From: Anadara kagoshimensis
Lineage: Eukaryota; Mollusca; Bivalvia; Arcoida; Arcidae
Assembly (NCBI GenBank): GCA_021292105.1
Contig: CM037863.1
Location: forward strand, 3,422,892-3,486,891
Direction: 5' to 3'
Length of the DNA stretch: 64,000 bases
Part shown: positions 12,157-62,796 of the stretch, piece by piece
Position numbering within the stretch: position 1 is the stretch's first letter
Layout: every line of letters starts with the position of its first letter
Notes under the pieces: model-generated
The model's input: the letters and a program-made list of their open reading frames with translations, nothing else
What the model was told of the DNA's origin: nothing
Database searches by the model: none
Program-made: the position numbers and the translations under genes

Positions 12157-12192
12157 ACATAGCTAAAAAACGTCGACTGGCAGAGGTTGAAG
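12157..12192 (+). pseudogene. gene 1 exon remnant, module 1 with a 48-bp internal deletion
   Basis: The sequence matches the 3' part of the gene 2 exon at 60650-60733 (CGTCGACTGGCAGAGGTTGAAG is shared in two pieces), but 48 bp of the 84-bp exon are missing. The remaining stretch still begins after a CTATAG acceptor-like AG and is 36 bp long, so phase 1-1 is kept. The donor is GTTAAT, weaker than GTTAGT in gene 2. It could be a short functional exon or a dead one; splicing cannot be judged from sequence alone. Confidence 0.5.
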
Positions 12193-12656
12193 GTTAATTA
12201 TTAAAGTTATTTTGCTTTTCACAAACATCAAAGTGATTTTCACAATTTCGAAAAATATAATTGACTCTAAAACGATAAAAGAATTGAAATAAAAGTGAAC
12301 TATTTATAGAATACACCTTGGCTACAGCAGATATACATTTTATCCCCAGACTTTTGAACAAAGAGGGGAACATAGCACACATAGTGATTCTAATTTTTTT
12401 GCTACGGCAATATTGTTATATATTTACAATTATGGATTGTATTAAACTCTGTTTTAGACCAAGTAAAGTTATAGGACTATAATTACATTTGCTAATGTGA
12501 CGTCACTCATTTCTTGCTGACACCTATGCTCGTGACGTCATTGATAGGCTGTTCCAGGAATTGGAGTTGCATGTCGTACACGACAGTGTTTTAAATTTAT
12601 TTCCGGATTCAAAAAACAAAAATAAGATTTTTAAAAAATGCGAAATGTAAATATCT

Positions 12657-12784
12657 AGAAATGGCGTTTATAGTGCTATAACTTCCATTGCCGTGCAATG
12701 CAAACTAGCCATAACGCGCTAGTGCGCGTTATTCGGTTTGCTTTGCACGGCAATGGAAGTTATAGCACTATAAACGCCATTTCT
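12657..12784. mobile_element. 128-bp perfect-stem palindromic MITE
   Basis: AGAAATGGCGTTTATAGTGC and the following roughly 25 bases are repeated inverted at the right end, with a GC-rich centre (CGCGCTAGTGCGCG-like). It lies in a roughly 375-bp insertion that is absent from the paralogous intron near 61010. Confidence 0.8.
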
Positions 12785-13037
12785 TGACAGTTTAATGGTT
12801 AATTAACTTGTTGATTTGTCGTTGAAAAAACTCTATAAAGTGAAAGATAAGAAATGAAAATAATTGTCTTTTGTAATGGAAGTATGAAATAATTGGACAT
12901 TGCACACATAATTGCGTAGCATGGTTTTCCTACGAATATTTTTTGTTTTACCTGTTTATAGAAGAAGTTGGTTCCTAATTGAATGGTACTTTATTAAATG
13001 ACAAGAAAAATAACCCTTAATTCATTATTATTAACAG

Positions 13038-13121
13038 GTGAATTAGCTGAAGTTAAACATATTTCCACATCCGCAAAGGCAGCAGTCACTGCTACTAATA
13101 GTAGGCTAGCGAGGATGGAAT
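13038..13121 (+). CDS. gene 1 exon: 28-residue coiled-coil-like module 2
   Basis: This is an 84-bp exon with acceptor TTATTAACAG and consensus donor GTAAGT, phase 1-1. It encodes ELAEVKHISTSAKAAVTATN followed by SRLARME and is the orthologous position of 61247-61330. The last exon base is T instead of G, which would change the junction residue from Gly to Cys when joined to the next GT-starting exon. Confidence 0.65.
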
Positions 13122-13560
13122 GTAAGTAGAAAGAGTTCTTGGTGGACCATATTTGGGGCCGATAATGGTCTCTAATCATAATTTAAATTCTTGTGTTGTT
13201 TCACAAATATTAAGCTAAACCTGATTTCTACAATGTAACCGACTAAAATAGTTAATAAGTAATATAAAAAAATCTTTCGCAATAACCTGGTGGACATTTA
13301 CATGATTATCTTTGTTTTGTCAATTTGCAAAGTTTTTTGTTTACTTTTAAATTGTGATTTTGACATGGATTGTTATGTTTGGCTTCAAATAGTTTAGCAA
13401 TTAAAGTCAACTTTACCTACCATACCAGTAACAACAAAACACTGGCTGCAGTACACATACTTGGTTCACAAGTCAAGAAATTATCAGACAATAAAAGAAA
13501 TGGGTACCAACATTAATTTTACATTTTTGTAAGAAAAAAATAATCTATTCTTCTTTACAG

Positions 13561-13643
13561 GTGAAGTAACTGAAAAAAAAAAAATTCCACATCCACGGAG
13601 ACAGCAGTCACGGCTACCAATACTAGACTAGCGAGGGTAGAAG
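13561..13643 (+). pseudogene. gene 1 exon: module 3 with a 1-nt frameshift
   Basis: The exon has a good acceptor (TTCTTTACAG) and donor (GTTAGT) and is collinear with 61734-61817, but it is 83 bp instead of 84. One base is missing within the A-rich run (12 A then TT, against AAATT then 9 A and T in gene 2). Including it breaks the frame. Skipping it would restore the frame, because the exons on both sides are phase 1. A homopolymer assembly error is an equally good explanation. Confidence 0.55.
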
Positions 13644-14121
13644 GTTAGTACAAAGAGCCGTCACTGGTTCATATTATGTGTCGATATTGGTTCCCATTCA
13701 CAATTTAAAATCAATTTTCAAACAGTAACTTGATTTTCACATTTTAAAAAAGTGATAAACTTGATACAGTTGTAGCAAGAAATAAAATCACCATATTTAT
13801 GACGTAATAATTAAAAATGTTTGTCGTCCATTACAATATTTTTTGCGCTGAATGCTAATAAAATGAAAATGTATTTAAATTATTATTTATAGACAATTCC
13901 TGTCCGACGTTATTTTCCAAAACTATAAATAATTGATTCGATATTCACATACCATTATTGTAAGTAATTACTGGCTTGGGATCCTAATTCACTGAATTTG
14001 CTACTTTTAAATAATACTTGAGCCAATGTTACCAAATAAAATAATATGAATTTAAAAGAAAATTTCAGACCAATAACATCTTTTAAGAAAAAATGTTATA
14101 GGAATGAAATTAATTTTTCTC

Positions 14122-14229
14122 TGTGCTATGCAAGTGTGAAAGAATTGGACATTTTGCGCACTGAGAAATTAGCATAGCGAATTATTCTATGTGTGCAAAT
14201 TGTCCAATTCTTTTATACTTCCATAACAA
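14122..14229. repeat. Hairpin element, copy 1
   Basis: AGAATTGGACATTTTGC on the left and its inverse GCAAATTGTCCAATTCT on the right are separated by about 30 bases. Both arms extend towards GGAAGTAT and ATACTTCC. A single arm of the same family lies at about 12877-12910. The hairpin was present before the segmental duplication. Confidence 0.65.
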
Positions 14230-14512
14230 AATGAAAATTTGTTTCATTTCTTTTAATTTAATTTTTAGAAATTTTTCAATAACAAATAAATAACTTAACA
14301 ACAACATAGCTGTAGCAAGTAACTTATGCCGTAGGAATTCAAATGCCTCTGTACGCCATCCATAATTAGATCACGTCACTGAGAGCCAATTAATTCATGC
14401 AAAGGTAGAAGAAAAATCTGACCAATGAATATGCTTTTAGCAAATGAGAATTGAAAAAAATTATGTGAAATTAAATTCAATGTGTTCTCTATTGATGTAT
14501 TTATTAACACAG

Positions 14513-14569
14513 GGCAAGTAAAGACATTAACTGAGGGACAAATCAAAGACAAAGCAACAGAGTTTGATG
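14513..14569 (+). CDS. gene 1 exon: 19-residue helical linker
   Basis: This is a 57-bp, phase 1-1 exon with acceptor TTATTAACACAG and donor GTAGGT. It encodes G-QVKTLTEGQIKDKATEF-D. Relative to 62731-62796 it lacks three codons near its start, an in-frame 9-bp difference. Joining its last base G to the AA that opens the exon at 26901 gives a Glu codon, so it is the probable immediate upstream neighbour of the NTPase exon. Confidence 0.6.
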
Positions 14570-14904
14570 GTAGGTATACATAAAAACGTTTTGAAATTAT
14601 TATACCCAATGGAACTAAAGTTATGAAGGGTATAATGTTTTTGACCCATCAGTCTATTACTACACTTTTAAGCTCATCTGAGCCATAGGCTCTGTCCATC
14701 GTTTGTAATTCATTGTTCGTCGTGTGTAAACTTTAATCAACTCCTCCAAAACACCAAATTAAACAAATGAAATACAGAAATGGTTTATTATCTCCATAAC
14801 TATGAATGAAGATCTTGGGTTCAAAGGTCAAGGTCACAGATGCAAATGAATATTGAAATGGTTCATAATCTAAAAAACTATAAACTTTTTGTATAGACAC
14901 ATAT

Positions 14905-14939
14905 ATGAGCCGCTCCATGACAAAACGACCCTTATGGCA
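14905..14939 (+). repeat. Left member of a widely spaced inverted repeat
   Basis: ATGAGCCGCTCCATGAC, then a short spacer, then ACCCTTATGGCA. The inverse lies 11 kb away at 25900-25926. The same motif also occurs near 63124 in the second duplication copy. Confidence 0.6.
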
Positions 14940-17900
14940 TAAAAAATCGATTTTGAGTTTTTATCAGATCCTGAAAGTGCATTTTCTTGTGATTCCAAAA
15001 ATGTATATCTTGTCTAAAAATTCCCGTATTTGACGTCGCTATGGTAACTTTAACACACAAGTGGTTTAAGTTGTGACGTAATGTAACGTCACTGTAAGAT
15101 AAACGAAAAAGAATTAAATTATAGTTTCGGAAAATATTTAATTCATAAATTTCAAGTTTCCAAACATTTTATTCTCGGAGCATATTCAAAATCCTGTATT
15201 ATTGAAAAAGAATAAAATTCGAAATGCATTGATATAAAATAAATTACAATTATTTGGTGATTTCCAATTATTGACACAGGGAAAAACTTCCATTTTAATA
15301 TTTTTTTATGTTGTTGAAAAAAATAAACAAATTAGAATTACTTTAGATAATGATGACCAGGTGGTGCAGTGGTTCGCGTTTCCACTCATCATCAATCAAG
15401 TTCATAACCACCTTTCTAAGTGACACCTAATTGGATTCATCATAATCTCCAATTTTTGTACAGCGTGAACAAAGTGAACGCGTACTTTGCTATCACTTTC
15501 TTCCAAGATATCGAGCTTCTTTGCTATGAAATTATAAGATATGAGTACACCTGAAAATAGTGCGCCTGGTAAATGAGCGTGAAAGAAGTATATCTGTTTT
15601 ATCGTGAGATATGTATTCTGAGACGGGTAATGCATTTGGTTACATATGCACATTTGGAATAAATTTTCGGAATCTAGTAAAATATTGCGACGGGATGCAT
15701 CTAATAATTTCTGCAATTTGGCGAACTGATCTCATGTTTACAATAAAAAGTAGTTCGAGAAGTTTGCGGCCTACGATGTAAAATCATAACTTTTTATGAA
15801 ACGAACAGCAAGGACAGGTTGTTTAATTAATTCTTCATGAAATCTACGGAAATTTAAATTTATTTTGAAGGTCATGATAACGTATTTTGATGTTGAGGCA
15901 ATTGTGTCATATTTAAAATGTTTATCGATTAGATTTTACTTTCGTGAAAGGGAGATAATTCGTACAGTGTTGTGTGGAAATTTTAAATACAGTCGTTTTA
16001 CCAGTTCCGAACAGGGTTTCATATAAGCGCTGCTGCAGACCTCATCCACAAGCAGAGGAAATAAAATTTATGTGGTGTAATAATACAAATGTTTACTGAT
16101 TCCAAAATATCGACACCTGTCCTCAAAAACACGTGGTAGTATGTTTTCTTGAAAAAAGCATTTTCGTGATCATGAATTGTTTACATCGTTAAACTAGGTC
16201 ACCAACAATCTGTCGACTTGTCCTGCACATACATTTAGGAAGCGGTTGAAGTTTATATTATTTAAACAATTAATGCCAATACATTCAAGTAGAAGCAAAT
16301 TTAGAAAGTTATTTTGCGATTCCTTTAATTGAACGGGATTGAAATTTTAGATTATTCGGTAGTAAAAATTCGGAACTGGTAAAACAACAACATGAAACGG
16401 GAATATTGTGAGTGATACCGGTAATCAGCAGTTAATTAAAACCCAGATTTAACAGCAAATGATCCAGTTACATACAACCGCTAGAATGTACCCCCTCATA
16501 GCGACGGTAGGATCTGCAAAACTCTACTTTCTCTCTATCCGAAATGACAAAACGATCGGGTACAACTTTTTTAAATTTTAATTACCGATTGTCTTTTTCA
16601 TATATTTATGAAATTATTATTTCTACCATTTAATTCAGCAATACATGGTTTGGTACATTGTTTCTTTTTCCAAAAAAGAAGATCTGTCGGACTATGCATA
16701 GATCGACACACGTTTTGATTGACAACAGGTTTCTGCAAACGAGAATGACATTTTTGGGACAGTGTAATGATTTGCTTGTTTTATTATCCCCGTGAGGGTA
16801 GGGGGGCTGTATGTACATGTACATGTTTGTGTATGTGTTCTTGGATAATTTGGTTTCGATGCATTTTAAAGAAAACCGTTCATCCAATTTAGATGAAACT
16901 TGGTCAGTTAATTTATTATGGTGGTGAGTGATATGGGTTTGCTCGACAGCCTTATAGCATATCCAAGATGCCCATCGTTACTATAAACAGCAAAAACCTG
17001 TAAATGATCATTACAGCCTTATTTATGTACTGATTTTGTTTATATTTTAAACAAAGAAAAAAGAATTCATGTTATTAAACATAGTTAACGGTTTTTCTGT
17101 TTTCCTTATTTATGTACCAATTTTGGTAGAATTTTAAACATAGAACAGTGATCGACATTAACACTAGCCCATTTATCAGAGGCAAGTAAAAATTAGTCAC
17201 GGTTAGTGAATCTTGTATTACCAGTATCCTGATGGGCTAGTAGCTTATCTCAAAACAATTAGTTCATATACTCGATTCAGATCTTTCTAGACCTATGAAT
17301 ATATAATCTAAAATTCTCCCGATTGTAGGATTTTTCCCATTTTTTCTATTTTTTCGGGGGTGAAAGGGGGAACAGGACATTTTCCCTATTTTTCGGGAGT
17401 GGAAGGGGGAACAGGACATGCCCCAGACTACTCAACTTCAAGCAGGGCTAGCGATTTCCAACAACTACTAGCCCTGTGGGCTACTATTGAAAAAGTTAGT
17501 GCCAAACCCTGTAGAAAAAAATGACTCTAAGCATTAAATATATGTAACAGGTTTTTCCGTTAAATTTTTAGTTTGCGTAATTTTGATGCAAATAAGGTGT
17601 ATCTATAGCCTAAGTATATTATTCTTTAGTATGGTTTTCAATCTATTAAATGGCCCAAACACCCAAATTATTTTACAGCCAGTGGTAAAAAAAACATATT
17701 TCACTTTGTATGGGATTCACTGCCGGGGAGGGGGTAGTGTTCTCTGAACACCTTGTTTTGCTTGGCAACATCATGTGGCCTTTTTAGCTCAACAGTTGTA
17801 ATCAATTCACACCGGTGTAACATTCAAAAGTAAACCTAACTTTTCTTCTGTCAAACAATGTGCAGATTAAACTGCTTTGCTTTTATAACAAGACTTGATT

Positions 17901-17968
17901 TTTGAAATCTGAAGATGGGATTATATAAAACTAGTTTTATACAACGTTGACTTAACATTTGTAGGTGT

Positions 17969-17998
17969 GTATTTTTTTTTTTTTTTTTTTTTTTTTTG
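17969..17998 (+). repeat. Poly-T tract
   Basis: A run of about 28 T in an otherwise mixed intron. It may be the tail of an old minus-strand retrotransposed copy, but no body was recognised. Confidence 0.6.
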
Positions 17999-18370
17999 AA
18001 AAATAGATTGTTGTTGTTGTAATGTTGTTTAACCTCACATCAACATTCTTTCAGCTAAGAAAACTAATTTATGAATGTCTAACGATAACATGTAATCTAA
18101 GAACAAGTTCATGTATGCATGAGATGTGCAAGTGTGTGGTGTGTTTTGTACTAGCCTGAACTCATGCATGACCACTTTATGGTGCAAACTCACCAAGTAT
18201 GTATGCCAATCTTCTAATCCAAGTCATGTTATACTGAGCTCATTTGAATTATTCAATAATCTGCCCTCAAAATACTGAGTGCCAGGTGAGAAAGCAGGGT
18301 CTCAAATGTTAACAATCTTAGATATGGACCCGACCTGAGTTCTAACCTACAACCTCCCGCTCTCAAGGCG

Positions 18371-18372
<2 letters not shown>

Positions 18373-18412
<40 letters not shown>
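18373..18412 (+). repeat. (GA)n microsatellite
   Basis: About 20 GA dinucleotides lie directly after a degenerate repeat (18270-18370). Confidence 0.9.
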
Positions 18413-18416
<4 letters not shown>

Positions 18417-19404
18417 CATCTACAATTTCTTGTTTCCACATTTACGGTTATTGATGACAATTAAGATAAAATGCTTTAAATGTGTATTGTTATGTAATAA
18501 GGTTGAGTTATACAAAGATATTTGACATGCCCTTACATAAAAGTTTGATTCAATTCCTATAAAAATGTGCTCAAACTTCGACAGATTTTACTGGAAAGAC
18601 AAAATGCCCTCAAATACTAAAAACTCTGAAGTAACTTTTTCAGTTTTATGCCTCCAGTCAAGATTTTACCCGTTAAATAGCCGGGGATGGAGAAACCGGG
18701 ATATCAGGGGAAAACCCCAGACTTAAATCAAATTAACTGACAAAATATCTTACAGTGTCCCATGTCGTTCGAACCTAGGCAGTGAGAGCACAACAATCAT
18801 TAATTGGGCACTCAGTCACCCAGGGACTCGCATATTGCAGGATAAGGACAAAAATATCCTTTAAATAAAGTGTATACCTGTAGTTGTATTCAAAGATAGC
18901 ATGTGGCACTTTCATCAAATTCAATGTATGGATATTTACTACAATCTCTACTGAGTACTTAAAAGAGCATGCATACGATATTTATTTTAAACATAGCACT
19001 GCAGTGCTGATCTACAGCGTAGTTGTAAATATGCTGTAAAAGGGAAGGAAATTGTAATCTACCCATTCATACAGATATGGGGGTTTTGAAAGTTGTGACT
19101 GGCATATTACATAGAAGTTGAAAGAAAATATACCAGCATATTTCAGTAACTGTCACAGATTTTTATAGGACTTGTGTAAACTTTTAAACACACTCATGAT
19201 TGATCAAATGATGTTCACAATAATGCATTATCAATATGATGTTTTGTATTCAAAGTGTATTAGATCTTACATTCATCAAATACAAAGAAATATATTGATG
19301 GACTGTACTCTGAAAATCGGAAGAACTATACTTCACAAAGCACTACAATTTTCTTATGATGAAGATGGTTTCTCCGTGTTGATGATGATGTGACATGAGC
19401 AGCA

Positions 19405-19936
19405 ACAGTAGAACTTGTGTCACAACCACCACCACTATCATCATCAAATTCATCACTATCAGAAATCCTCATGTCACATGATTGTAACAGTATCATCATC
19501 AGCAGTAGCAGCAACAGAACTGACATGTCACCACCATCATCATCTTCATCATTCCTCATGTCATATCATTATCATCATGAATCGGCATCATTATAAACAG
19601 CAGGAGAACTCAATGATATCCACACCATCATCATTGTCAGAAATCCTCATGTCACATCATCATCATCATCATCATTGGCAGCAACAGAATTCATGTCACC
19701 GTCATCATAACTCCCCATTCGCATCATATCATCATCACAAATCTTCATGCCACATCATCATCAACATGGTGACGTCATTATTATTATGAATCATCATCAT
19801 CTGCAGCAGCAGAAATCAATGTCACCATCACCATCATCAGATCATCCCCATAATCAGATTTACTCATGTCATCATCAACATAAGGACATTGTCATCATCA
19901 TCACGGTCATCAACATCATCAGATTTACTCATACCA

Positions 19937-19983
<47 letters not shown>

Positions 19984-20167
19984 CATCAATGTCACATGAG
20001 CAACATGGTGATATTATCATGAATCAACATCATTATAAGCAGCAGCAAAACTTAATGTCATCTCCTATCATCATCATTATCAGAAATCCTCATGTCACAT
20101 TATCATCATCATCATCATTGGCAGCAACAGAACTCATGTCAGCATCATGATAAACTATCATCATCAC

Positions 20168-20215
<48 letters not shown>

Positions 20216-20244
20216 ATTTACTTATGTCATCATCAACATGAAAA

Positions 20245-20294
<50 letters not shown>

Positions 20295-20590
20295 GATTTA
20301 CTCATGTCACACCATCATCAACATGAAGACATCATCATCATCACAAATCTACATGTCAAATATCTTTGTCACATCATCATCATCAACATGGTAACATCAT
20401 TTTTATAATGAATTACCATCATCATTATCAGCATCAGAACTCGTGTCACCACCACCATCATCATGTCGCATTACATTAACATGGTGACTTCATCTGCAGA
20501 ACTCAATTTAATCACCACCACAACCACCATCATTATCATCATCAGAACATCATCATCATATCATCAGAACTCCTCATGCCACATCATCAA
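19405..20590 (+). repeat. CAT/ATC-rich low-complexity tract with an embedded degenerate higher-order unit
   Basis: ATC/CAT triplets dominate. Recurrent words such as AGAAATCCTCATGTCACAT and GCAGCAACAG recur at irregular spacing of a few hundred bases, so it is a degenerate minisatellite and not a simple microsatellite. Histidine- and serine-rich open frames on both strands are products of the triplet bias. Confidence 0.85.
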
Positions 20591-21156
20591 CTGGTGTCGT
20601 CATTACATGAAAAACATATACACATGTATTTAAACCCTGCACTATGACCATTTACTTCCTTTGAATTAAGTTGTATTACTCTCCATTGTTTAAGTCATTG
20701 ATTTAATTCACAATAAATTTGAATAAAAATAAAATAAAATCTTTGTTTTTATATCTTTCAGTGCTAATTTAAATGTTAAAATTATTGATGGATTTATATA
20801 AATTGACCAAGTGAACTTAAAAGGCCTGAAGTGGTATAAACCATTCTTGCACAACTTGTTGTCCTAATAATTTACATCTTCCAACTACAGACGGTTGACG
20901 AGATTGTTTGTACAAAAAGGGAAATATTTCTTAACATGGATTGATTGATAATTTTTGGACAACTTAATGTCCAACATAATCCTCTGCAAAAATTAAATTA
21001 CTTTGAATTTAAGTATTATTAAGCGGTCTGATAATATTATTTTTACTGATTTTACATGTCCAGGTAATTTACTTCCGCTGTGAGCCCCACTGAAAGGTGA
21101 TAAAAAAATCAATACATGTACTTCTAAAGAACCAGACACCGCTCTATTTATAGTTT

Positions 21157-21169
21157 TGACAGTGAATAA
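21157..21169 (+). repeat. LINE target-site duplication, 3' side
   Basis: TGACAGTGAATAA directly abuts the poly-T (the A tail of the minus-strand element). Confidence 0.9.
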
Positions 21170-23494
21170 TTTTTTTTTTTTTTTTTAAATTGAATGCATT
21201 TATTTTTTTTTTATTTTCATTTTTTAACACATATTACAAAAAATTTTAAGTACACCATTCACACACTCATACATACACAGGTACATGTATAAACTTTTAA
21301 ACTTAACATGTCCGAAAAAAGCCAAAAAACTTAATGCTTAGGAAAATAATTTACTCGCTAAACATGTTTTTATAATCTCCCCATATTTTTTCAAAAATCT
21401 TTAAATTATCTGAAAGTTGATATTGTTTCTTTTCTGTTATATATAAATAAAAAAAGTGGTGTTTGAGTTCATTAAAATTCAAACATTGTTCATTGTATCT
21501 TTTAACTGTAATATAATGTTTTGTGGTGTTTACTTTTTTATTTATAATTTGTTCTTTTTTCCCATATTTACCTAGAATAGCATCTCTTACTGTTACATTA
21601 TGTGTAATTTTCACTTTATTGCTTATCCACTCTTCTATATTAGACCAAATAGTTCGTACATATGGACAGTCAAAGAATAAATGACATAAGTCTTCTTCGT
21701 AAGTTTTACAAAAGGTACAAAGCGATGAACTTTTTAATTTGATCTTTTGAAGAAAAACATTCGTACCATATATTCTATGTATTATCCTAAAGTTTAACCA
21801 TTTTAATTTAGGGTCTTTTACATTTTTATACAAATTTGTGTACACGTTACTCCAGTTAAAAGATTCTGGTAAATTGAGTTCTTGTGTCCATTTTGATTCA
21901 ATTTTTGGTTTAATATACATTTCTTTTATAAATACATCATATATGTGTTGTGTTCCTTTCGAATACTTACTAATACATTTTAAATCGGATATATATGAGT
22001 TATCAATATTTTGATCATTCTCTTTGATATTAAGAGTCGATATTATGCTTCTTTTTATCCCTTCATAATTAGTAAAATGTATTTTAATGTCATATTTATT
22101 TTCAATTTCTTTTAATTCAATAATTTTTCTATTTCCATTCAATAAATCTCTAATTTTTATAATTCCTTTTTCATACCATTTTTTCCAAAAATAGTGGATT
22201 TATCCATTTTTATCTTTGAATTATACCATAAACTATGATCAAGTACAGAAAATCGCTTATTTGACTTTGGTGTTATTCTTTTGAATTCAGCGAAATATGT
22301 TAAGACTTCTTTCCAAAATACATTTTTAGCAGAGTTCGCTTTTAATTGACAGAAATCGTCTCCGAAGTCATCAACATGTTTTAGTTTAACATTTACTATT
22401 GTCGAAAACAATCTAAAAATATTATCATTCCTAAGCTGTAGTCGGCGAAGCCAACTTAACTTAAGTGCTTTGATAAAACTTTTTATATCAACCATTCTGC
22501 ACCCCCTCGTTCATAATCCTGTATAATAAGCTTTCTGTTTACTTTATCTATTTTACCCTCCCATAAATAGTTATAAAATGCTTTTTCTAATTTTTGGATA
22601 ATATTATTTTCTGGTTTTGGGAGACTTGTGAAAAGATGTGTTAGTTTAGGAAGGAGTAGGCTTTTTATTACAGTAATTTTACCAAACAGGGTGAGGTTTC
22701 TTTTTGACCAGGATTTTAAATCACGCTGAATTTCAGATAACTTGTTGCTATAATTACTGATTGATATATGTTCCAAATCTGGTGTGTACTTAATACCAAG
22801 AACTGTAAATGCTTCTGATGTCCATTCTAAACCGGTATCTTTACACAACATATCTTTACTATTTATTTTTGACCCTATCACAATTGCTTTAGTTTTTTCA
22901 ATATTTGGTTTTAAACCTGAATATTTTGAAAATTGAAATAAAAGGTCTAGCGAACTCTTAAGACTTTTTTCACTTCCATCAAGAAAAATACAAGTGTCAT
23001 CAGCATATTGTAATAAGCAAATTTCAGTATTGTCAATGTTTATACCCTTTATATTCTTGTTATGTCTGAACATGTTTGCCATTATCTCTGCACAAAGAAT
23101 AAATAGATATGGTGAGATGGGATCCCCTTGGCGACAACCTTTAAATATTTTAAAGAATTGAGAGAAAATTCCATTCTGTATAACACACAATTCAGCATTA
23201 TTGTAAAGAGTTTTAACATATTTTATAAATTCATGTCCAAAATTAAAAAATTGTAATGTTTTAAATATAAATTTCCACGATACTGAGTCGAACGCTTTTT
23301 CAAAATCGATCAGAAGTAAAGCACCTGGGATATTTTTTTCTTTTGTAATTTGCAGAACATCATAAATTATTCTAGTATTTTCGCCAATAAAGCGACCACC
23401 TATAAAACCTCTTTGATTTTCGTGAATTAAATAATCTAACGTAGACTTCAATCTATTAGCAATGCAGCTTGAAATTAGTTTATAAGTCACAAAG
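21170..23494 (-). mobile_element. 5'-truncated LINE (L1/Tx1-like) with target-site duplication
   Basis: The element runs on the minus strand. A 17-base A tail (T at 21170-21186) marks the 3' end, and the 5' end falls inside the reverse transcriptase at about 23494. The 13-bp duplication TGACAGTGAATAA flanks it exactly (21157-21169 and 23495-23507). The endonuclease and start of ORF2 are missing, so it is dead on arrival. It lies in the gene 1 intron in antisense orientation. Confidence 0.92.
21351..23490 (-). pseudogene. Reverse transcriptase (ORF2 C-terminal part) with frameshifts
   Basis: Three open segments in different frames (23490-22483, 22495-22157, 22142-21351) are consecutive pieces of one ORF2. 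The first carries reverse transcriptase signatures: LLIDFEKAFDSVSW, GCRQGDPISPYLF and QYADD (near 23000). The last carries a C-x2-C...H-x4-C zf-RVT-type knuckle (CTFCKT, then HLFFDC). The frame changes near 22490 and near 22170, the latter in an A-rich run. It is non-functional as read. Confidence 0.9.
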
Positions 23495-23507
23495 TGACAG
23501 TGAATAA
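23495..23507 (+). repeat. LINE target-site duplication, 5' side
   Basis: A perfect second copy of TGACAGTGAATAA at the truncated 5' junction. Confidence 0.9.
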
Positions 23508-25377
23508 ATTTACCTGGATTTTAACTGTTACAAATTACTGAACACATTGTAAGTGTCTGAGGATTTTATTATTATTAGCTTCTAATTAACGGATTAATTA
23601 TCAAGTGACAACCAGTACTGTTATGAATAAAATCAGTAAGAAATATGCACTTTTGGACATCTGTGCAAGTTATCATCGTGATTAAAAGGTAAATGAAATT
23701 TTATTGGAAAGTTTTCAAACATACTGTAGCAACCCCATGGCCAGGTGATTACCTGTGACTGCTTTTCATTTAATTCTATTTTGTTAGGTTTTGTTTTTAT
23801 AAAGAGTTATATCATTGAAAACAGAATGAAATACAATAGTTTTGTTATGAGATTTTTACACCTGAGATATTGTGTATTAATTGTAAAAATTCCAGGTAAA
23901 AATTGTAATACACTTAAGGGCCGATTTTCGGGTAAATCGTTTTAGAAAGGGGTAAATAAGTTTTTCTTTCCGAAGGGACTGCAATTAATCCAGGACCCTG
24001 ATTTTTAGGACCAATCAGAAAAAAGAATTATCTATTATCCATCGTTTGCAGCTTCCTTTTATCTGTGGTAGAAAAAAGTTATAACACCAAAAAGTTGATA
24101 GACGCTTGCGCAAAAATATTTGGTAATTTTTTTTTGCTGCATATATATTTTAATATGATTATTTTAAGATAAAAATCATAAAAATTCATTAAGTACAAGC
24201 CCCTCGAAAACCCAACAAAAAAGACGATATTGTCAGTTCGCACCAACGTTCTTCTTTTTGACCTACATGTGGATTTTTAAATTTACGCTAAGTGATATCG
24301 ATAAATAAACACAAAATGTGCTCTTTATATAGCATTTTAGGTTAATAAAGTTTATAATCAACACAAATATATTCACAGCTATCAGTGTTGAAAGCAGTTT
24401 TAATTTTCACGGACGATTTTATTATGAACATGAAAATATGAAAATTTTGAATATGGGAAAATCCCGTCTATCCTCCGAATCTGTTGACTAGATATTGCAG
24501 TGTGATTCAAATCGGGACAAAGATCCGAGAATAAAGAATAAAAGCTTTGACATTTAAATGATTATAAAAAGGACAGGGTGTCGTGATCATTTTAATTAAA
24601 CGTACAAATCCGTTGACGAAAACTACTTAGTCGCCGAATCGACTCTCTCAGTTTGAATGGGCGCAGTACTTTCTGATATAGACAAAGTTTGAATGGACGG
24701 ACTACTTTCTCTTAGGTTTATTATTGCCATACGCAATTGTCAATCACCTATGTAAATGTTATCTTAACGGGTCTAATGTGAATTTTATGCACACTGTTTC
24801 ATGCACAAACGACTCTCGCAAAATTCATTCAGATCTTGGAATCCCCGGTGCGCACTATATTATCTTATGCGTACTTATTTCATAGCAAACCGCCCGATCT
24901 TCAAATGCTAGGTAATGACATACTACAGCGTTCACGCTGGCTTTGCTTAACTATCGTTAAGCTACACTTAGCGCGATGCTGTAGAAAAAACCGTATCTTC
25001 GCCAAAAAAGAAATTACTTGTCCCTATTTTGACACAATACACGTAAACTGTGTGTATGGTTTCAAATTTTCAATTTCAACCAACGTAAATAAAATGTCAT
25101 ATTCTGAAACAGAACTATATTATATCATGGTATTGCATTTACAAAACTTGACATTGTTTCAACTGTATTGTCCATTTAAGTCTCATGATTAGCAAATTAT
25201 ATCATAACAAATACCATTAAAAAAATAGGGATTAAGGCATTATTTCAGTACACAGAATTCTTTTTTAAATTTAAGGACACACCACTTGGTTCAGATAAAC
25301 TAAACTATTTTATCTATTTGAGAATAATGTTGAATTGTCCGTATAGTTATTGTTTACATATTCTCACTATAAAAAAT

Positions 25378-25926: not shown

Positions 25927-26900
25927 TATTATAATGTTATATTGGTCTAATGATCAGTTAGATATATCAATGAAGGTCTTGCAAAAACCCTGGCATATTG
26001 GTATTAACTGATGAAAATTCCCTTTTATTATCCATTAAACCATTGCACGAGATATGCACATACCCTCAGATGATCTTAGGTGTACGTTAAGGCCCCATGA
26101 CCTCGTGTTTCCTAACTGCTTGCTGGGTTTTAAAATATAAAAACTGCAATGTGTTTAATCATGATTTGTTTTAATGTATAAATATATTGCCATCCAAAAT
26201 TATTTTACATGTTTAAATCTGGTGATGTCATTCCAAGATGCAAATCTTCAAAAAATTATATCCTTGAAAGCATTCCTATTCTAAAGTTGACTGGTTGTCA
26301 GCTTAAACAGAATTTTTAACAATGGCATTGCTTTGTAAGCGGTTTTCTCTGTTGTATAAAGTTTGTGATGTGGTAACAAGTTCCACCATAGAGTATTAAT
26401 TGTAAAATCGTTAAAACTTTGTAAACAGAACGTGTGATTATGAAATATAAACTATTGAGGCAGTCAAGAAAATTATACAGCTAATTAATGAAATATGAGG
26501 TAAATATTAAATTTATTGAGAGTTTTTGGCTTTGAATGAGCACTGGATACATTGACAAGTGTATTCCGTAGTACTATTAGTAATAGTGAGTCCTTGTCTT
26601 TAACAGGAGATGAAATGTAGAATGTGGCTGTCATTATAAAACTGTTAATTGTGATATTTCATATCAAAAATTATTCTTTGTATATATGATGTAGTTCAAT
26701 TTTCCCACTTCCACCACACTGGCCAGTGTAGCCAGCTAGACAGGATATACTTACCATTTCCAAGGACCTAGCCTGACTTCTCTTGTGCAACTTCACTTTT
26801 TTAACTGAATTTGAGCTGTTTTTGATTTGCTTTTGTGATTGCAAATTTTACGTAGATTGTTTTTTTGTAGTCGACTGTATTTAAAACCTTTCCATTTTAG

Positions 26901-28407: not shown

Positions 28408-28408
28408 G

Positions 28409-49400: not shown

Positions 49401-49949
49401 GTACTGAACCAAATAACACTACTGTTATCAAGTACTAAACCAAATAACATACCGTTACCAAGTACTCAACCAAATAACACTACTGTTACCAAGTAATCAA
49501 CCAAATAATACTACTGTTACCAAGTACTCAACCAAATAATTCTACTATTACCAAGTACTAAACCAAATAACATACTGTTATCAAGTACTCAACCAAATAA
49601 CACTGCTGTTATCAAGTACTCAACCAAATGACACTACTGTTATCAAGTACTCAACCAAATAACACCACTGTTATCAAATACTCAACCAAATGACACTACT
49701 GTTATCAATTACTCAACCAAATAACACTACTGCTATTAAGTACTCAACCAAATAACACCACTGTTATCAAGTACTAAACCAAATAACACTACTGTTATCA
49801 AGTACTCAACCAAATAACACCACTGTTACCAAGTACTGAACCAAATAACACCACTGTTACCAAGTACTGAACCAAATAACATACTGTTACCAAGTACTGA
49901 ACCAAATAATACTACTTTTATCAAGTACTCAACCAAATAACATACTGTT
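46407..49949 (+). repeat. 31-bp satellite array 2 (about 114 copies)
   Basis: The first third is mixed. From about 47280 the array is dominated by the CAACCAAATAACAC variant, with ACTGTTAC/ACTGTTATC alternation and a recurrent 1-nt-short CATACTG form, a sign of local homogenisation. Confidence 0.93.
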
Positions 49950-49981
49950 TCACATTATTAGACGTTTGAATTTGCATTTAT

Positions 49982-51810: not shown

Positions 51811-52877
<1,067 letters not shown>

Positions 52878-54635: not shown

Positions 54636-54641
54636 GATGAC

Positions 54642-54643
<2 letters not shown>

Positions 54644-54729
<86 letters not shown>
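54644..54729 (+). repeat. (AT)n microsatellite
   Basis: About 42 AT dinucleotides at the a/b block boundary. Confidence 0.95.
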
Positions 54730-54730
<1 letters not shown>

Positions 54731-55956
54731 CACTAGTTTATTTTGTAATAATCAAGGGAACGCTAATCCGAAATATTACGTACACTTTATCAACTGCGAA
54801 ACCTACAACTATCCGTATGGATAGAATAAACAATTCTGTATAAAAATTACTAATAACAGGTCAAACGGACAGGTCAAAGTTCTGTGTGTATACCTTTGGT
54901 ATTGGATTTTTTACTTTCGTTTTTAGTTTATAGGTGTGTATAATGTCTTTTTTACAAGGACATATCAGTGTTTAACTATGGTATTATAAAAGTTAAGATA
55001 AACAACACTGAACGTCGGACATGAACACACTTTTAACTTCAAGTTCCTTATTTGTCATCATTGCAATATTTATAATATCTATAGCACATTAAAACTGTAC
55101 AACATTCGTGTGTTAAAATGTAATTTTAAAACATTTAGGTTTTTTTATAATGATTGAAAAATAACGTCATCAATACTTGAACACACCATTATATAATGAA
55201 CTCCGTCTCCAACATCTTCAAAACACCAGGTATATAATCTAACTGACTTTGGTATGTTTTGAATTACGATATGTTTCTTTAGGTAACTAATTATTAATTA
55301 TAATTAATTCTTTTTATTTCTTTTTTGTTAAAAATGTAAGATTATAAATAATGTCGTATTTCAATATTGTAGCAAAATACATGTAACATAAGCTTTTAGA
55401 TGGAATATTGATGTTGAATAAACTGTTCACATACATTTTACTTACCATACTTTTGCTGTCAAATGTCCGGGATAACCATATATGACTTAAATCATATTCC
55501 TCATCAAAATTAATTTTGTCTTACAAATGATAAAATTAACACCATTTAGACCATTTGAATATAAATGCTTTAACATTAGTAATAATATGTGCTCCAGTAA
55601 CAGTATTAGCCCAAAAAATCTACTTTTATTATTAATAATAACTGGAGTATATATAGAAAAAACTGTGTTCACTTGACGAAAAAGACTGCTGTTAAAGGGG
55701 GGTAATTCGTATGACATTCAGTTCAATTAAGCTTACATTCTTGTGTATTATACGAAGTCAGTTTGATATATAATGTGTATTGCACTACAACACAATAACG
55801 ATTTGTTCTATTTCGTTGACGACGAGGTTGAATAGCTCTATCTAATATCATTCCAATTTAATAAAAATAGTTTTAAAATTAAAGACGACAGAGACTTCAG
55901 TTAAAAGAGAATGACTTGTAAAGCCTTGAGTACATTTGCGGCAATATGATATAATA
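54730..55956 (+). repeat. b-type satellite block, copy 3
   Basis: It is collinear with 39166-40537 and 45006-46406 but shorter near 55100, and leads into array 3. Confidence 0.75.
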
Positions 55957-58651
55957 TAAAACCACTGTTACCAAGTACTCAACCACATTACACCACTGTT
56001 ACCAAGTACTCAACCATATAACACCACTGTTACCAAGTACTCAATCAAATAACCCCACTGTTACCAAGTACTCAACAACATAACATCACTGTTACCAAGT
56101 ACTCAACTACATTACACCACTGTTACCAAGGACTCAACCATATAACACCACTGTTACCAAGTACTTAACCACATAACACCTCTGTTACCAAGTACTCAAT
56201 CAAATAACCCAACTGTTACCAAGTACTCAACAACATAACATCACTGTTACCAAGTACTCAACAACATAATCCAAATGTTACCAAGTACTCCACAACATAA
56301 CATCACTGTTACCAAGTACTCAACAACATAATCCCACTGTTACCAAGTACTCAACAACATAACCCCACTGTTACCAAGTACTCAACTGCATAACACCACT
56401 GTAACCAAGTACTCAACAACATAAACCCACTGTTACCAAGTACTCAACAACATAACCCCACTGTTACCAAGTACTCAACAACAAAACCCCACTGATACCA
56501 AGTACTCAACACCATAACACCACTGTTACCAAGTACTCAACAACATAGCCCCACTGTTACCAAGTACTCAATAACATAACACAACAGTTACCAAGTACTC
56601 AACAACATAACCCCACTGTTACCAAGTTCTAAACAATATAACATCATTGTTACGAAGTACTCAACAATATAACACCACAGTTACTAAGTACTTAACAACA
56701 TGACATCACTGATACCAAGTTCTAAACAATATATCACCTCTGTTACCAAGTACTAAACAACATAACACCACTGTTACCAAGTACCCAACAAAATAACATC
56801 CCAGTTACCAGCTACTCAATAACATCACACCACTGCTACAAAATACTAAACAACATAACACCACGGTTACCAAGTACTCAACCACATCACACACTGATAC
56901 CAAGTATTCAACACCACGGTTACTAAGTACTCTACAACATAACACCACTGTTACCAATTACTCAACAACATAACACCACTGTTACCAATTACTCAACAAC
57001 ATAACACCACGGTTACCAAGTATTCAACCGCATAACACCATTGTTACCAAGTACTCAACAACATAATACCACTGCTACGAAGTACTCAACAACATAACAC
57101 CACCGTTACCAAATACTTAACTGCATTACACCACTGTAATCAAGTACTCAACAATATAACACAAATGCAACCAAATACTCAACAACAAAACACTACTTGT
57201 ACCAAGCAAACAACAACATAACACCAAAGTGACCAAGGACGTAACCATATAACACACTGATACCAAGTAATCAACAGCATAACACCAATGTTACCAAATG
57301 CTCAAGAACATTACCCCACTGTTACCAAATACACAACCACATAACACCACTGTAACCAAGTACTCAACAACATAACACCACAGTTCCAATTACTCAAAAA
57401 CATCACATCAATGTTACAAGTACTCAACACATAATACCACTGTTACCAAGCACTCAACTACATAACACCAATGTTACCAAGTACTCAACTACATAACACC
57501 ACTATAACCAAGTATTCAACATCATAATACTACTGCTACCAAGCACTCAACAACATAACACCAAAGTGACCAAGGACTCAAAAATATAACACACTGCTGA
57601 CAAGTACTCAACAACATAACACCACTGTAACCCAGTATTCAACCACACAACTCCACTGATACCTAGTACTCAACGACATAACAGCATTGTTACCAAGTAC
57701 TCAAAACCACGGTAACTAAGTACTGAACCGCAATAAACCACTGTTACTAAGTATTCAACACCACGGTTTCCAAGTACTAAACAACATAACACCACTATTA
57801 CCAAATACTCAACAACATAACACCACTGTAACCAAGTACTCAACAACTTAACGTCACTGTTACTAAGTACTCTACAACAAAACACCACTGTTTTCAAATA
57901 CTCAACAACATAGGAGCAATGAAAACAAGTATTCAACAACATAACACAACTGTTACCAAGTACTTAACAACACCACTGTTACCAAGTATTCATCTAAATA
58001 GCACCACTGTTTCTATGTTCTCAACAACATAATACCACAGTAACCAAGTACTCAACAACATCACACAAATGTTACCAAGTACTCAACCACATAACACACT
58101 GATACCGAGTACTCAACTACATAACATTACTGTTTCCAAGTGTTTATCTACATAAAACCACTGTAACCAAGTACTCAACAACATAACCCCACCGTTACCA
58201 AGTACTCAACAGCATAACCCCACTGTTACCAAGTACTCAACAACATAACACCACTGTAACCACGTACTCAACAGCATAACCCCACTGTTACGAAGTACTC
58301 AACAACATAACACCACTGTAACCAAGTACTCAACAACATAACATCACCGTTACCAAGTACTCAACAGAATAACCCCACTGTTACGAGGTACTCAACAACA
58401 TAACACCACTGTAACCAAGTACTCAACAACATAACACCACTGTTACCAAGTACTCAACAACATAATACTACCGTAACAAAGTATTCAACAACATAATACT
58501 ACCGTAACAAAGTATTCAACAACATCACACCAATGTTACCAAGTACTCACCAACACAATTTTACTGTTACCAAGTACTTAACCACATAACACCATCGTAA
58601 CCAAAGACTCAACCACAAAATGCCACTGCTAGCAAATACTTAACTACATAA
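55957..58651 (+). repeat. 31-bp satellite array 3 (about 87 copies)
   Basis: The dominant variant is CAACAACATAACACCACTGT, different from array 2. Copies are more degenerate in the middle (57150-58000). The array ends about 36 bp before the splice acceptor of the HEPN exon. Confidence 0.92.
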
Positions 58652-58741
58652 TGTTATGTAATGATTGATTTTTATTTTTATTTTCAGATTTTCTAAATGT
58701 AAGCGGTTCCAGTTTTCACTCCTTGTAATTAGAAAGAGGTG

Positions 58742-59363
58742 ATGGCTACAGGTGGAGTACCAAACTTAACACCCCAAAGTAGTAAAGAGAAGATTAATTA
58801 TGCTAGACTTTGTAGGGCTATAATTGACATTGGGACTGAAGTGTTGAGGGCAAATTTGAACCGTCATATACAGCCAGTAAATATACTTAATAATGTAATA
58901 AGATGCCCAAACTTAAAGCTGATGCCTCCGTTTATGGTGAAGGTGAACAATGCACAAACACAAGGATATTCTAAGTTTGACATTTCCCTATTATATATTC
59001 TCATTAAAAAGTTATGCCAGACTCAGATTTCTCCAACACGGGGCTGGATCCCTAATCTGAACCCATTACCAAGTGAAACCACAGAAGGAGATGATGTGGA
59101 AAGAATTCATTTAATTCGGAATAGAATTTACGGACACATACCTAATACATGTGTAAGGGATACAGAATATTCTCGCTGCTGGAAAGAACTTGAGGGTATT
59201 GTGCATAGATATGACTCAAAATACGGAACATCTTACACCAGTCAGCTGACATACATAGCCAATCAATGTATGGATGATGTCACAGAAAAGCTATATATGG
59301 ATAAGATCAAAGAATTAAATGAACAGGATGCAGAGATAAGGGATGAATTGAAAAAAGTGAAAG
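58742..59363 (+). CDS. HEPN (DZIP3-like) exon of gene 2, first coding exon
   Basis: This exon encodes 207 residues plus one base. I recognise the DZIP3-like HEPN family from the N-terminal helix around residues 19-38 (NYARLCRAIIDIGTEVLRA) and from the HEPN signature R126-N-R-I-Y-G-H132, the R-x(4-6)-H motif that forms the RNase or nucleotide-binding site in HEPN proteins. The end of the exon is charged and helical, consistent with a lead-in to the coiled coil. The ATG at 58742 is chosen because an in-frame TAG lies at 58730, and a good acceptor (TTTTATTTTCAG, ending 58687) would make 58688-58741 5'UTR. The open frame runs on to a stop at 59390-59392, but the donor GTAGGG at 59364 gives phase 1, which matches the next exon. 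Whether the HEPN is an active RNase is inference. Confidence 0.8.
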
Positions 59364-59829: not shown

Positions 59830-60180
59830 CATAAAAGAGTTGAGTTCAGTAATTGTGTTTAACGTCCAAGTCAAGAACATTTCACTTATATCGATATGTT
59901 GCCAACTGTAGGCGAAGGTGCAGAAATTTTGCCCGTGTGTTGCGCTTATGGAATTATACAGCAGGGTTCTTTAGCGTGCCAAGCCTAATGTGACACGGGA
60001 CCTCGTTTATTTTAAGTTCCCATCCGAAAGAACCGTGACTTTCATTTCGTAATTGTGAGTGCTTGGTGAAAGAACAGTCACTACCCACTTTTAAGTCTTG
60101 GGTCAGACATGGCCAGGGTTCAAACCCTCAACCCGCCACTTACGAAGCGAGCACTGTACCAACTGAGCTACCGCAGTGGT
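59830..60180 (-). mobile_element. tRNA-derived SINE inserted in the gene 2 intron
   Basis: The tRNA-like head is at 60110-60178 on the minus strand, with A-box GCGGTAGCTCAGTTGGT and B-box GGTTTGAACCCTGG. The body of about 270 bp is followed by CATAAA-type target duplications. Copy 1 of the segmental duplication has the empty site near 11884 (AAACCATAAAGTCC), so insertion followed the duplication. Confidence 0.75.
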
Positions 60181-60649: not shown

Positions 60650-60733
60650 CTGAAGTTACTGAAGTTAAAGAACTTTCCACATCCAAGGAGGCAGCAGTTA
60701 TGGCTAACACACGTCGACTGGCAGAGGTTGAAG
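60650..60733 (+). CDS. gene 2 exon: 28-residue coiled-coil-like module 1
   Basis: This is an 84-bp exon between a TGTCTTTAG acceptor and a GTTAGT donor, phase 1-1. It reads EVTEVKELSTSKEAAVMANT followed by RRLAEVE. Hydrophobic residues are spaced roughly as heptads (V, V, L, A, V, L, V), and the rest is Glu/Lys/Ser/Thr-rich, which suggests a helical linker. It shares the pattern E-x-x-E-V-K-x-x-S-T-S-x-E-A-A-V-x-A with the next two exons, so the three arose by tandem exon duplication. The phase joins it in frame to the HEPN exon upstream. The coiled-coil assignment is inferred from pattern only. Confidence 0.7.
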
Positions 60734-61246
60734 GTTAGTAGCACATACAACTCACCATAGACTATTTTTTGTCAATTTTGTTCCCCGTTCACAATTAAAA
60801 ATCTTATGCTATTCACAAACATCAAAGTAATTTTCACAATTTAGAAAAATAAAATTAACTCTAATATGATAAAAAAACTGAAATAAAAATAAACGATTTA
60901 AAGAATATACCTTGGCTATCTATACTTTTATCCCCAGAAAGAAAGACGGGAACATAGCAAACATAGCCATAGCAAGGCTAATTTTTACTTCCTACGACAA
61001 TATTGTTATTTAACTTGTTGATTTGTCGTTGAAAAAAAATCTATATAGTGAATGATAATAAATAAAAATAATTTTTCTTTTTGTTATGGAAGTATGAAAA
61101 ATTGGACATTGCATACATAACATCATTTTCTTACGAATATTTTTTGTTTTCCCTGTTTATAGAAGGAGTTAGTGTCAAAGTGAACGGTGCTTTATTAGTA
61201 GACAAGAACAAATAAAAAAATTAATCTAATTCATTATTATTCTCAG

Positions 61247-61330
61247 GTGAATTAGCTGAAGTTAAAGATATTTCCACATCCATGGAGGCAGCCGTCACAG
61301 CTACCGATAGTAGACTAGTGATTGTGGAAG
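61247..61330 (+). CDS. gene 2 exon: 28-residue coiled-coil-like module 2
   Basis: This is an 84-bp, phase 1-1 exon with acceptor TTATTCTCAG and a consensus donor GTAAGT. It reads G-ELAEVKDISTSMEAAVTAT-DSRLVIVE and is homologous to the exons at 60650 and 61734 and to 13038-13121 in gene 1. Conservation of reading frame, exon length and splice sites between the paralogues supports it as coding despite its small size. Confidence 0.72.
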
Positions 61331-61733
61331 GTAAGTAGAAAGGGTCCATGTTGGACCATATTGCGGGATGATAATGGCCTCTATTCATAATTTAAATTCT
61401 TGTGTTGTTTCACAATCATTATAGGCTAAACCTGATTTCTACAACATAAGCAACTATAATAGGTAATAATTAATATAAAAATAAATCTTTGGCAATATAC
61501 CTGGTGTATATTTACGTGATTATCTTTGTTTTTTCAATATACAAATTTTTTCTTTACTTTGGAATTGGGATTTTGACATGGATTGGTATTTTTGGTTTTA
61601 AATAGTTTAGAAAGTACACATACTTGGTACACAAGTCCAGAAACATTTAAAATTACTAGGCAATAAAAGAAGTCGGTACCAACATTAATTTTACTTTATT
61701 GTGAAAAAAGAACTAATCCATTCTTCTTTACAG

Positions 61734-61817
61734 GTGAAGTAACTGAAATTAAAAAAAAATCCACATCCACGGAGACAGCAGTCACGGCTACCAATACTAG
61801 ACTAGCGAGGGTAGAAG
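61734..61817 (+). CDS. gene 2 exon: 28-residue coiled-coil-like module 3
   Basis: This is an 84-bp, phase 1-1 exon with acceptor TTCTTTACAG and donor GTTAGT. It encodes G-EVTEIKKKSTSTETAVTAT-NTRLARVE. A run of nine A codes for the three lysines. The frame is intact here, whereas the gene 1 counterpart (13561-13643) is one base shorter in the same A-rich stretch. Confidence 0.7.
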
Positions 61818-62331
61818 GTTAGTATAAACGGCCGTCGCTGCTTCATTCTGTGTCAATATTGGTTCCTATTCACAATTTAAAATCTGATGTCTTTTTTTCA
61901 AACATTAACCTGATTTTCACATTTTAAAAAAGTGATAAACTTGATACAGTTGTAGCAAGAAATAAAATCACCATATTTATGGCGTAAGAATTGAAAAATG
62001 TGTGACGTACATTACAATATTTTTTGCGCTAAATGCTGATAAAATGAAAATGTATTTAAATTATAATGTAAAGACAACTCCTGTCCAAGGTAATTTTCCA
62101 AAACTATAAATAATTCATTCAATATTCACATACCATTATTGTCCTTTGAACATAAGTACAAACCATGAAAAAGTAATTACTGGCTTGTCATCCTAATTCA
62201 CTGAATTTGCTAATTTTACATAATACTTGAGCCAATGTTACCAAATAAAATAATGTGAAATTAAAAGAAAATTTCGGACCAATCAAAATCTTTTAAGAAA
62301 ATTGTTATAGGAATGAAATTAATTTTTCTCT

Positions 62332-62438
62332 TTGTTATGGAAGTGTGAAAGAATTGGACATTTTGCACACTGAGAGATTAGCATAGCGAATTATTCTATG
62401 TGTGCAAATTGTCCAATTCTTTTATACTTCCATAACAA
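62332..62438. repeat. Hairpin element, copy 2
   Basis: The arms are 39 bp and start TTGTTATGGAAGTGTG with the inverse ending CATAACAA. It is the paralogue of 14122-14229, and its stem is better preserved. A single-arm relative lies near 61083. Confidence 0.7.
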
Positions 62439-62730
62439 AATGAATATTTGTTTCATTTTTTTAAATTTAATGTTCAGACGTTTTTCAATAACAAATTATC
62501 AATTTTAACAACAACATAGCTGTAGCAAGTAAGCTATGGCGTAGGAATTCAAATGCCTCTGTACGCCATCCATAATTAGTTCACGTCACTGAGAGCCAAT
62601 TCATTCATGCAAAGGGAACAGAAAATCTGACCAATGAATACCCCCGGTATGCTTTTAACAAATGAGAATTGAAAAAAAATATGTGATATTAAATCCATTA
62701 TGTTCTCTATTGATGTATTTATTAACTCAG

Positions 62731-62796
62731 GGCAAGTGGAGGCTGTAAAGACATTAACTGAGGGACACCTCAAAGACAGAGCAACAGAGTTTGATG
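62731..62796 (+). CDS. gene 2 exon: 22-residue helical linker
   Basis: This is a 66-bp, phase 1-1 exon with acceptor TTATTAACTCAG and donor GTAGGT. It encodes G-QVEAVKTLTEGHLKDRATEF-D. In gene 1 the equivalent exon is followed by the nSTAND3 exon, so the NTPase and ankyrin part of gene 2 should lie beyond 64000. None of it is seen in this window. Confidence 0.65.

Follow-up and report, generated by a model that had tools for sequence, protein, structure and literature searches.

Two damaged HEPN_DZIP3–nSTAND3–ankyrin genes of Anadara kagoshimensis as probable members of a large STAND receptor family

Fusions of HEPN domains of the DZIP3/hRUL138 type to TPR, Zn-ribbon, RING, Ankyrin, CARD, NACHT, DEATH and LRR domains are described in a 2013 survey of HEPN proteins (Anantharaman et al. 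2013, PMC3710099), which reports lineage-specific expansions of this HEPN type in Nematostella, oyster and Capsaspora and, in its section 16, proposes RNA-cutting defence for related kinds of eukaryotic HEPN fusions. HEPN_DZIP3–NACHT genes number more than 50 in the pearl oyster, while 5-20 NACHT genes are given as typical of other molluscs (PMC9646362), and anthozoans have 17-83 HEPN_DZIP3–NACHT proteins (PMC8260672). A survey of Aplysia counted 4 NACHT proteins and reported OAS and RNase L as absent, and HEPN, STAND (signal transduction ATPases with numerous domains) and ankyrins are among the variable partners of the Crassostrea TRADD-N proteins. In bacterial Avs5, whose STAND domain bears the name nSTAND3 (PF20720), a phage protein is sensed and a Sir2-like effector triggered (PMC12931631). 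Here we analyse two related genes, gene 1 and gene 2, that carry HEPN_DZIP3, coiled-coil, nSTAND3 and ankyrin exons in a stretch of 64,000 nt of the Anadara kagoshimensis genome (the window; contig CM037863.1, here C7).

Both loci are, with a probability of roughly 0.65, damaged members of a large intracellular family resembling nucleotide-binding leucine-rich-repeat receptors (NLR-like), in which ankyrins would sense, nSTAND3 would switch and HEPN would probably cut RNA. In its full form such a protein would begin with HEPN_DZIP3 as effector, continue through a modular coiled coil to an nSTAND3 ATPase and the helical region that follows it, and end in a long array of ankyrins. The domains, their order and common strand, the in-phase joining of gene 2, the expansion of the family, paralogues with long open frames, the HEPN and Walker A motifs and the variability of the ankyrin face all argue for this reading at the level of sequence. 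The features concerned are given below in window positions.

12157–12192, plus strand: gene 1 linker exon 1, truncated (blastn 91% over 34 nt against gene 2 linker 1; borders read)
13038–13121, plus strand: gene 1 linker exon 2 (blastn 83% over 82 nt against gene 2 linker 2; borders read)
13561–13643, plus strand: gene 1 linker exon 3, with a 1-nt deletion and an in-frame TAG (comparison with gene 2)
14513–14569, plus strand: gene 1 linker exon 4, 9 nt shorter than that of gene 2 (blastn 94% over 53 nt; borders read)
16707–25138, no strand assigned: large intron tract, 98.8% identical to 63837–72276 of gene 2
26871–28405, plus strand: gene 1 nSTAND3 NTPase exon (Pfam 8.9e-23; TAA at 26882–26884, frameshift near 28400)
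28573–30912, plus strand: gene 1 ankyrin array, 99-bp unit, carrying both stops and frame changes (Pfam, tandem-repeat and unit scans, duplication alignment)
58742–59363, plus strand: gene 2 HEPN_DZIP3 exon (Pfam 1.5e-18; ATG at 58742, phase-1 donor after 59363; motif RNRIYGH)
60650–60733, plus strand: gene 2 linker exon 1, 84 nt, 28 aa or 4 heptads (frame joining and heptad test)
61247–61330, plus strand: gene 2 linker exon 2, 84 nt (blastn, frame joining, heptad test)
61734–61817, plus strand: gene 2 linker exon 3, 84 nt (blastn, frame joining, heptad test)
62731–62796, plus strand: gene 2 linker exon 4, 66 nt (blastn, duplication alignment, frame joining)
73671–76347 (window-equivalent, past the window end; locus L013), plus strand: gene 2 nSTAND3 and ankyrin frames (adjacent sequence)

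Gene 2 provides the order of the exons. The HEPN domain proposed for it from the DNA letters alone scores 67.4 bits against HEPN_DZIP3 (PF18738; curated cut-off 27) over residues 77-186 of the frame from 58736, and has the Rx4-6H motif of that family in the form R-x5-H. Its four linkers (84, 84, 84 and 66 nt) are all phase 1 and bordered by AG/GT. As an 84-nt exon encodes 28 residues, or four heptads, gaining such an exon disturbs neither the phase nor the coil register. With the register that fits best, hydrophobic residues occupy 18 of 30 linker a/d positions versus 8 of 76 other positions, a contrast not reached in any of 20000 shuffles (the best register being chosen separately for each shuffle). 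Extension past position 64000, which the preliminary description had recommended, takes gene 2 to its own nSTAND3 and ankyrin exon: the flanking sequence holds a second nSTAND3 exon from window-equivalent 73671 that accepts phase 1, and HEPN, the four linkers and this exon, joined in phase, read through 704 aa until the first stop. The sole lesion seen in gene 2 is a 1-nt difference (A4 vs A5) near 74814; behind the nSTAND region the frame is thereby shifted and meets a stop within ~10 codons. The ankyrins downstream are open in a different frame (74812-76347) and are cut off from the gene 2 frame because of this shift. As assembled, gene 2 would thus encode HEPN–coiled coil–nSTAND3 without ankyrins, unless the 1-nt shift reflects an error of sequencing or is polymorphic.

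Other elements lie around these exons. In gene 2, the interval from HEPN to linker 1 contains a stretch (~59830-60180) that gene 1 lacks at the corresponding position and that has a tRNA-like end; judged by eye, this stretch is possibly a short interspersed nuclear element (SINE). Three minisatellites with a near-identical 31-bp unit (40537-42205, 46406-49949 and 55956-58651, with 53.8, 114.5 and 87.1 copies, respectively) show strong strand asymmetry, and the last stops ~90 bp 5' of the HEPN start codon.

The same exon order recurs throughout the genome (1.115 Gb, 36 contigs). At least 121 HEPN_DZIP3 matches were found (best 150 of 217 candidates scored), with no matches to this domain in 14 prokaryote control genomes. 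Pfam nSTAND3 has at least 22 matches (best 22 of 312 candidates scored) and also matches in 14/14 control genomes, over the cut-off in 7, as expected of a domain that prokaryotes also have. With the nSTAND protein of gene 1 as query, at least 86 pieces (best 85 of 197 candidates scored) were merged into 82 nSTAND3-like places. A HEPN_DZIP3 match lies upstream on the same strand within 10 kb at 67 of these 82 places; the other three arrangements do not occur, and 15 places have none. Within 20 kb, HEPN is upstream at 69 of 82 and lacking at 13, with additional matches downstream on the same strand at 5 places and on the opposite strand at 1. Seen from the other side, 71 of the 121 HEPN matches have a same-strand nSTAND3-like partner downstream within 20 kb. 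For the best 22 Pfam nSTAND3 places the figures are 9 with HEPN upstream within 20 kb, 13 with none and 0 in other arrangements. Ankyrins complete the order: among the best 150 Ank matches (2617 candidates), 126 follow an nSTAND3-like place on its own strand at a distance of no more than 12 kb, 24 are near none and 0 occur solely in another arrangement; the 126 fall on 33 of the 82 places. NACHT, searched exon by exon, has 4 matches genome-wide (110/110 candidates scored), and OAS1_C has a single weak match (E 7.6e-4).

Six HEPN matches at C7 3.7-5.2 Mb have no nSTAND3-like match nearby in the search with the gene 1 nSTAND protein. One of them (L045, C7:3734500-3741499) has, at 609-1898, ~14-residue coiled-coil repeats behind a HEPN_DZIP3 exon.

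Several paralogues retain long open frames. L044, on contig C12 and 47% identical in nSTAND, has a 338-aa HEPN/coiled-coil frame and a 962-aa nSTAND3/ankyrin frame, so that all three domains are held in two open frames read without a splice model; the domains of L044 and of the nearby L043 exceed Pfam cut-offs. In L043 a 26-aa coiled-coil repeat occurs in additional copies, and the ankyrin frame stops early. The frames of L047 and L048 span 1319 and 2072 aa, with HEPN and nSTAND3 supported by Pfam in both (first 500 residues) and 42 and 44 ankyrin units, respectively, in the unit scan. Taken with the in-phase frame of gene 2 and the colinearity across the genome, the open frames of L044 bear out the earlier proposal that HEPN, coiled coil, nSTAND3 and ankyrins would form one gene type.

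RN..H is present at the match in the window HEPN and in 10 of 12 fetched HEPN loci, and Walker A was found in 12/12 nSTAND3 sequences of a comparison built on a search for this motif, as GNMGAGKS in both window copies. The PADLOC candidate model PDC-S73 also matches nSTAND3 (gene 1, 3.8e-08; L020, 1.2e-17). Sequence searches of solved structures gave no convincing relative for HEPN or nSTAND. A profile of 8 nSTAND3 sequences had 377 matches among these structures, the best 60 being mostly other P-loop ATPases (top, midasin, 3.6e-07), together with a weak match to the 'SIR2-like domain-containing protein' 9jap (E 0.023).

Variability within the ankyrin arrays is enriched at positions 2, 3, 5, 13, 14, 26 and 33, which we take to be the binding-face positions randomised in designed ankyrin proteins. 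The enrichment is seen for gene 1 (p 0.0007), gene 2 (p 0.005), L044 (p 0.027), L047 (p 0.00025), L048 (p 0.002) and L002, L004, L006 and L008 (p ≤0.0003); L005 was left out because it overlaps L004, and L001 and L007 have 3 units each. L003 shows no concentration at the face (p 0.15); of the tested arrays with ≥5 units, it alone lies away from both nSTAND3-like and HEPN matches. L004 has a HEPN match in its vicinity but no nSTAND3-like place. The ratio of amino-acid to silent change at the face is 9.6 for gene 1 (with few silent changes), 1.9 for gene 2 and 1.3-2.0 for L002, L004, L006 and L008. Ankyrin proteins in general tend to vary at these positions, and the variability fits ligand binding without proving selection.

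From these observations we infer splicing of the exons in vivo and an immune role for the product. A ligand would be bound by the variable face of the ankyrin array, upon which nSTAND3 would exchange nucleotide and oligomerise, assisted by the coiled coil. HEPN domains would thereby be brought together as dimers, in which the RN..H pairs would form an RNase site, and cutting of RNA by the dimer would stop the infection.

A number of observations weigh against this reading. The window copies are damaged, neither of them as assembled holding effector, STAND NTPase and repeats in one joined reading frame. Splice joins were modelled for gene 2 alone, L044, L047 and L048 being known as open frames; that of L048 starts at nSTAND3 profile position 29 and thus lacks the start of the domain and most of Walker A. 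For 50 of the 121 HEPN matches, no nSTAND3-like place follows in the next 20 kb. The HEPN Arg is replaced by K in L029 and L030, and the first Asp of Walker B is E (FVLEDP) in both window copies, where 8 of 10 others have DD and L023 and L024 have EN. Comparison of L043 with L044 gives dN/dS (nonsynonymous to synonymous substitution rates) of 0.83 for nSTAND and 0.80 for the HEPN exon, indicating little constraint. At the ankyrin face, the ratio of amino-acid to silent change is not uniform (L047, 1.16; L048, 0.94; L044, 0.86; the unlinked L003, 1.1). A HEPN model from the single sequence had a mean predicted local distance difference test score (pLDDT) of 50 and was unusable.

The alternative that survives best, though we consider it unlikely, accepts the STAND receptor family and makes HEPN a non-catalytic RNA-binding or dimerising adaptor, with signalling, not RNA cutting, as output. 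The substituted Arg of L029 and L030 would suit such an adaptor, and in the 2013 survey the motif of DZIP3/hRUL138 is given as 'mostly conserved' and motif-less HEPN domains of another family are regarded as probable RNA binders (PMC3710099). Against it stand the retention of RN..H in the window and most fetched loci and the presence of Rx4-6H in 194 of 202 cases reported for the pearl oyster (PMC9646362), both of which favour a HEPN that probably cuts RNA.

Gene 1 is the more damaged of the two loci. Its nSTAND3 exon, at the place proposed in the preliminary description, scores 81.1 bits (cut-off 27.2) over residues 22-175 of the frame from 26885; NACHT and NB-ARC ATPases are not among the Pfam families listed for this exon, nSTAND3 being found instead. 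The linkers had been described as paralogous in the two genes, and counterparts of all four gene 2 linkers indeed lie between 12157 and 14570. The ankyrin array, put earlier at about 24 repeats, is confirmed as such, with 21 units at a score of ≥45 (28573-30828) in the unit scan and 21.9 copies of the 99-bp unit in the tandem-repeat scan; 24 is fair if frames and broken units are disregarded. The TAA at 26882-26884 is the fourth full codon after the acceptor of the nSTAND3 exon, a T6 vs T7 difference shifts the frame near 28400, and the ankyrin array has at least 2 frame changes plus disrupted units. We found no HEPN exon for gene 1 in the 40 kb upstream of the window or in positions 1-26000, and loose searches of both regions for a HEPN remnant gave chance-level matches only (best E 0.14 for DNA, 0.22 for protein). 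Gene 1, as it stands in the window, is a pseudogene.

Genes 1 and 2 share a strand and are duplicates of each other, as had been proposed, with identities of 85% over 12795-15457, 98.8% over 16707-25138 and 92.7% over 26182-29538; as read from the alignment, the origin of the pair is a mosaic segmental duplication. From 17717 to 25138 (~7.4 kb), each 500-bp block is 99.6-100% identical, gaps not counted, while the remaining aligned blocks are at 84-97%, except one at 98.8% adjoining the near-identical tract and one at 99.4% (at 27689). Recent gene conversion would be the simplest reading of this intron tract. Pieces of a non-LTR (long terminal repeat) retrotransposon (RVT_1 1.4e-33, zf-RVT 1.8e-09) are present within it in both copies, at 21351-23520 on the minus strand in gene 1. 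Between the nSTAND exons, dS is 0.083 and dN 0.031 over 502 codons, and the ratio of 0.37 suggests past constraint.

The near-identical tract flanked by mostly 84-97% blocks, together with the homopolymer-type lesions (A4 vs A5 in gene 2, T6 vs T7 in gene 1), could be taken to mean that the pair is partly an assembly artefact, in which two haplotypes were placed in series and homopolymer errors added, rather than a true tandem of broken genes. We consider this improbable: blocks at 84-92% would be distant for alleles, gene conversion accounts for the near-identical tract, and frames of 962-2072 aa remain open in other paralogues from this assembly. Homopolymer errors could account for two lesions but hardly for all of those in gene 1, which include further lesions of other kinds. 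A non-immune scaffold family of ankyrin/coiled-coil proteins, with NTPase and HEPN in a housekeeping or germline RNA role, might explain the past constraint on the nSTAND exons, but is more improbable still, as a conflict family better fits the large, uneven expansion over many chromosomes, the tandem copies, the broken copies and the variable ankyrin faces.

A working tandem cluster at this locus is rejected in view of the lesions in both copies as assembled, which the preliminary description had not noted. That description had seen an expanding cluster here, a claim that the sequence does not support: both copies have disabling changes, gene 1 has no HEPN exon that we could find in the sequence searched, and the next HEPN of the contig is ~254 kb off. 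The expansion of the HEPN–nSTAND3–ankyrin family is across the genome, not at this locus.

Elsewhere in the window, arrays of a 21-bp unit at 5742-7190 and 7805-8684, in opposite orientations, are open on both strands for hundreds of codons and are probably non-coding repeats. Rfam gave no match at gathering scores within the window.

We tentatively propose, as a possibility that goes well beyond the reading of the two loci, that nSTAND3, not NACHT, is the main chassis of the NLR-like repertoire in this genome, possibly an overlooked receptor system of molluscs with an RNase output. The proposal would cover at least 82 related places, 69 with upstream HEPN_DZIP3 and at least 33 with strong downstream ankyrin arrays; binding faces would be diversified by repeat turnover, perhaps with selection, and coiled coils lengthened in whole-heptad units. 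Few NACHT genes are not special to the present genome, since 5-20 are typical of other molluscs (PMC9646362), and it is because most molluscs have few that the nSTAND3 family could be their overlooked receptor system. Surveys that count NACHT would score this genome, with 4 NACHT matches and more than 80 nSTAND3-like places, as NLR-poor despite a large receptor repertoire. Among the papers searched, the word nSTAND3 occurs in two, one on Avs5 and one on a mosquito virus, neither concerned with animal receptors; subscription papers and preprints were incompletely covered, and this is no proof of novelty. If the proposal is true, the family would be an animal counterpart of bacterial STAND defence, its STAND ATPase being common to a tested bacterial antiphage system, and would possibly take the part played by RNase L in vertebrates. 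The proposed RNase switch can be put to direct test in the relatives that have long open frames.

In RNase L, a kinase-like domain takes the place of the STAND NTPase, and the ankyrins are N-terminal. As in the genes described here, ankyrins and a HEPN-type RNase are combined in one protein, the HEPN family being a different one (KEN row, PMC3710099). In bacterial AVAST type 5 (Avs5), nSTAND3 likewise sits between an N-terminal effector and C-terminal repeats; there the effector is a Sir2-like NAD (nicotinamide adenine dinucleotide) hydrolase and the repeats are TPR, Sel1 or PPR, whereas here they are HEPN_DZIP3 and ankyrins (PMC12931631). The likeness to bacterial STAND defence drawn in the preliminary description is apt, nSTAND3 being the domain named in Avs5. 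The DZIP3/hRUL138 fusions have the same HEPN family as found here, and the STAND NTPase named there is NACHT, not nSTAND3 (PMC3710099). The genes of pearl oyster (PMC9646362) and anthozoans (PMC8260672) likewise combine HEPN_DZIP3, a STAND NTPase and repeats in a big expansion; their NTPase is NACHT, with LRR, TPR or WD40 repeats in the oyster, whereas the present genome has nSTAND3 with ankyrins and 4 NACHT matches. The predicted plan is the same as that of the known HEPN_DZIP3–NACHT receptors, with a different switch, nSTAND3.

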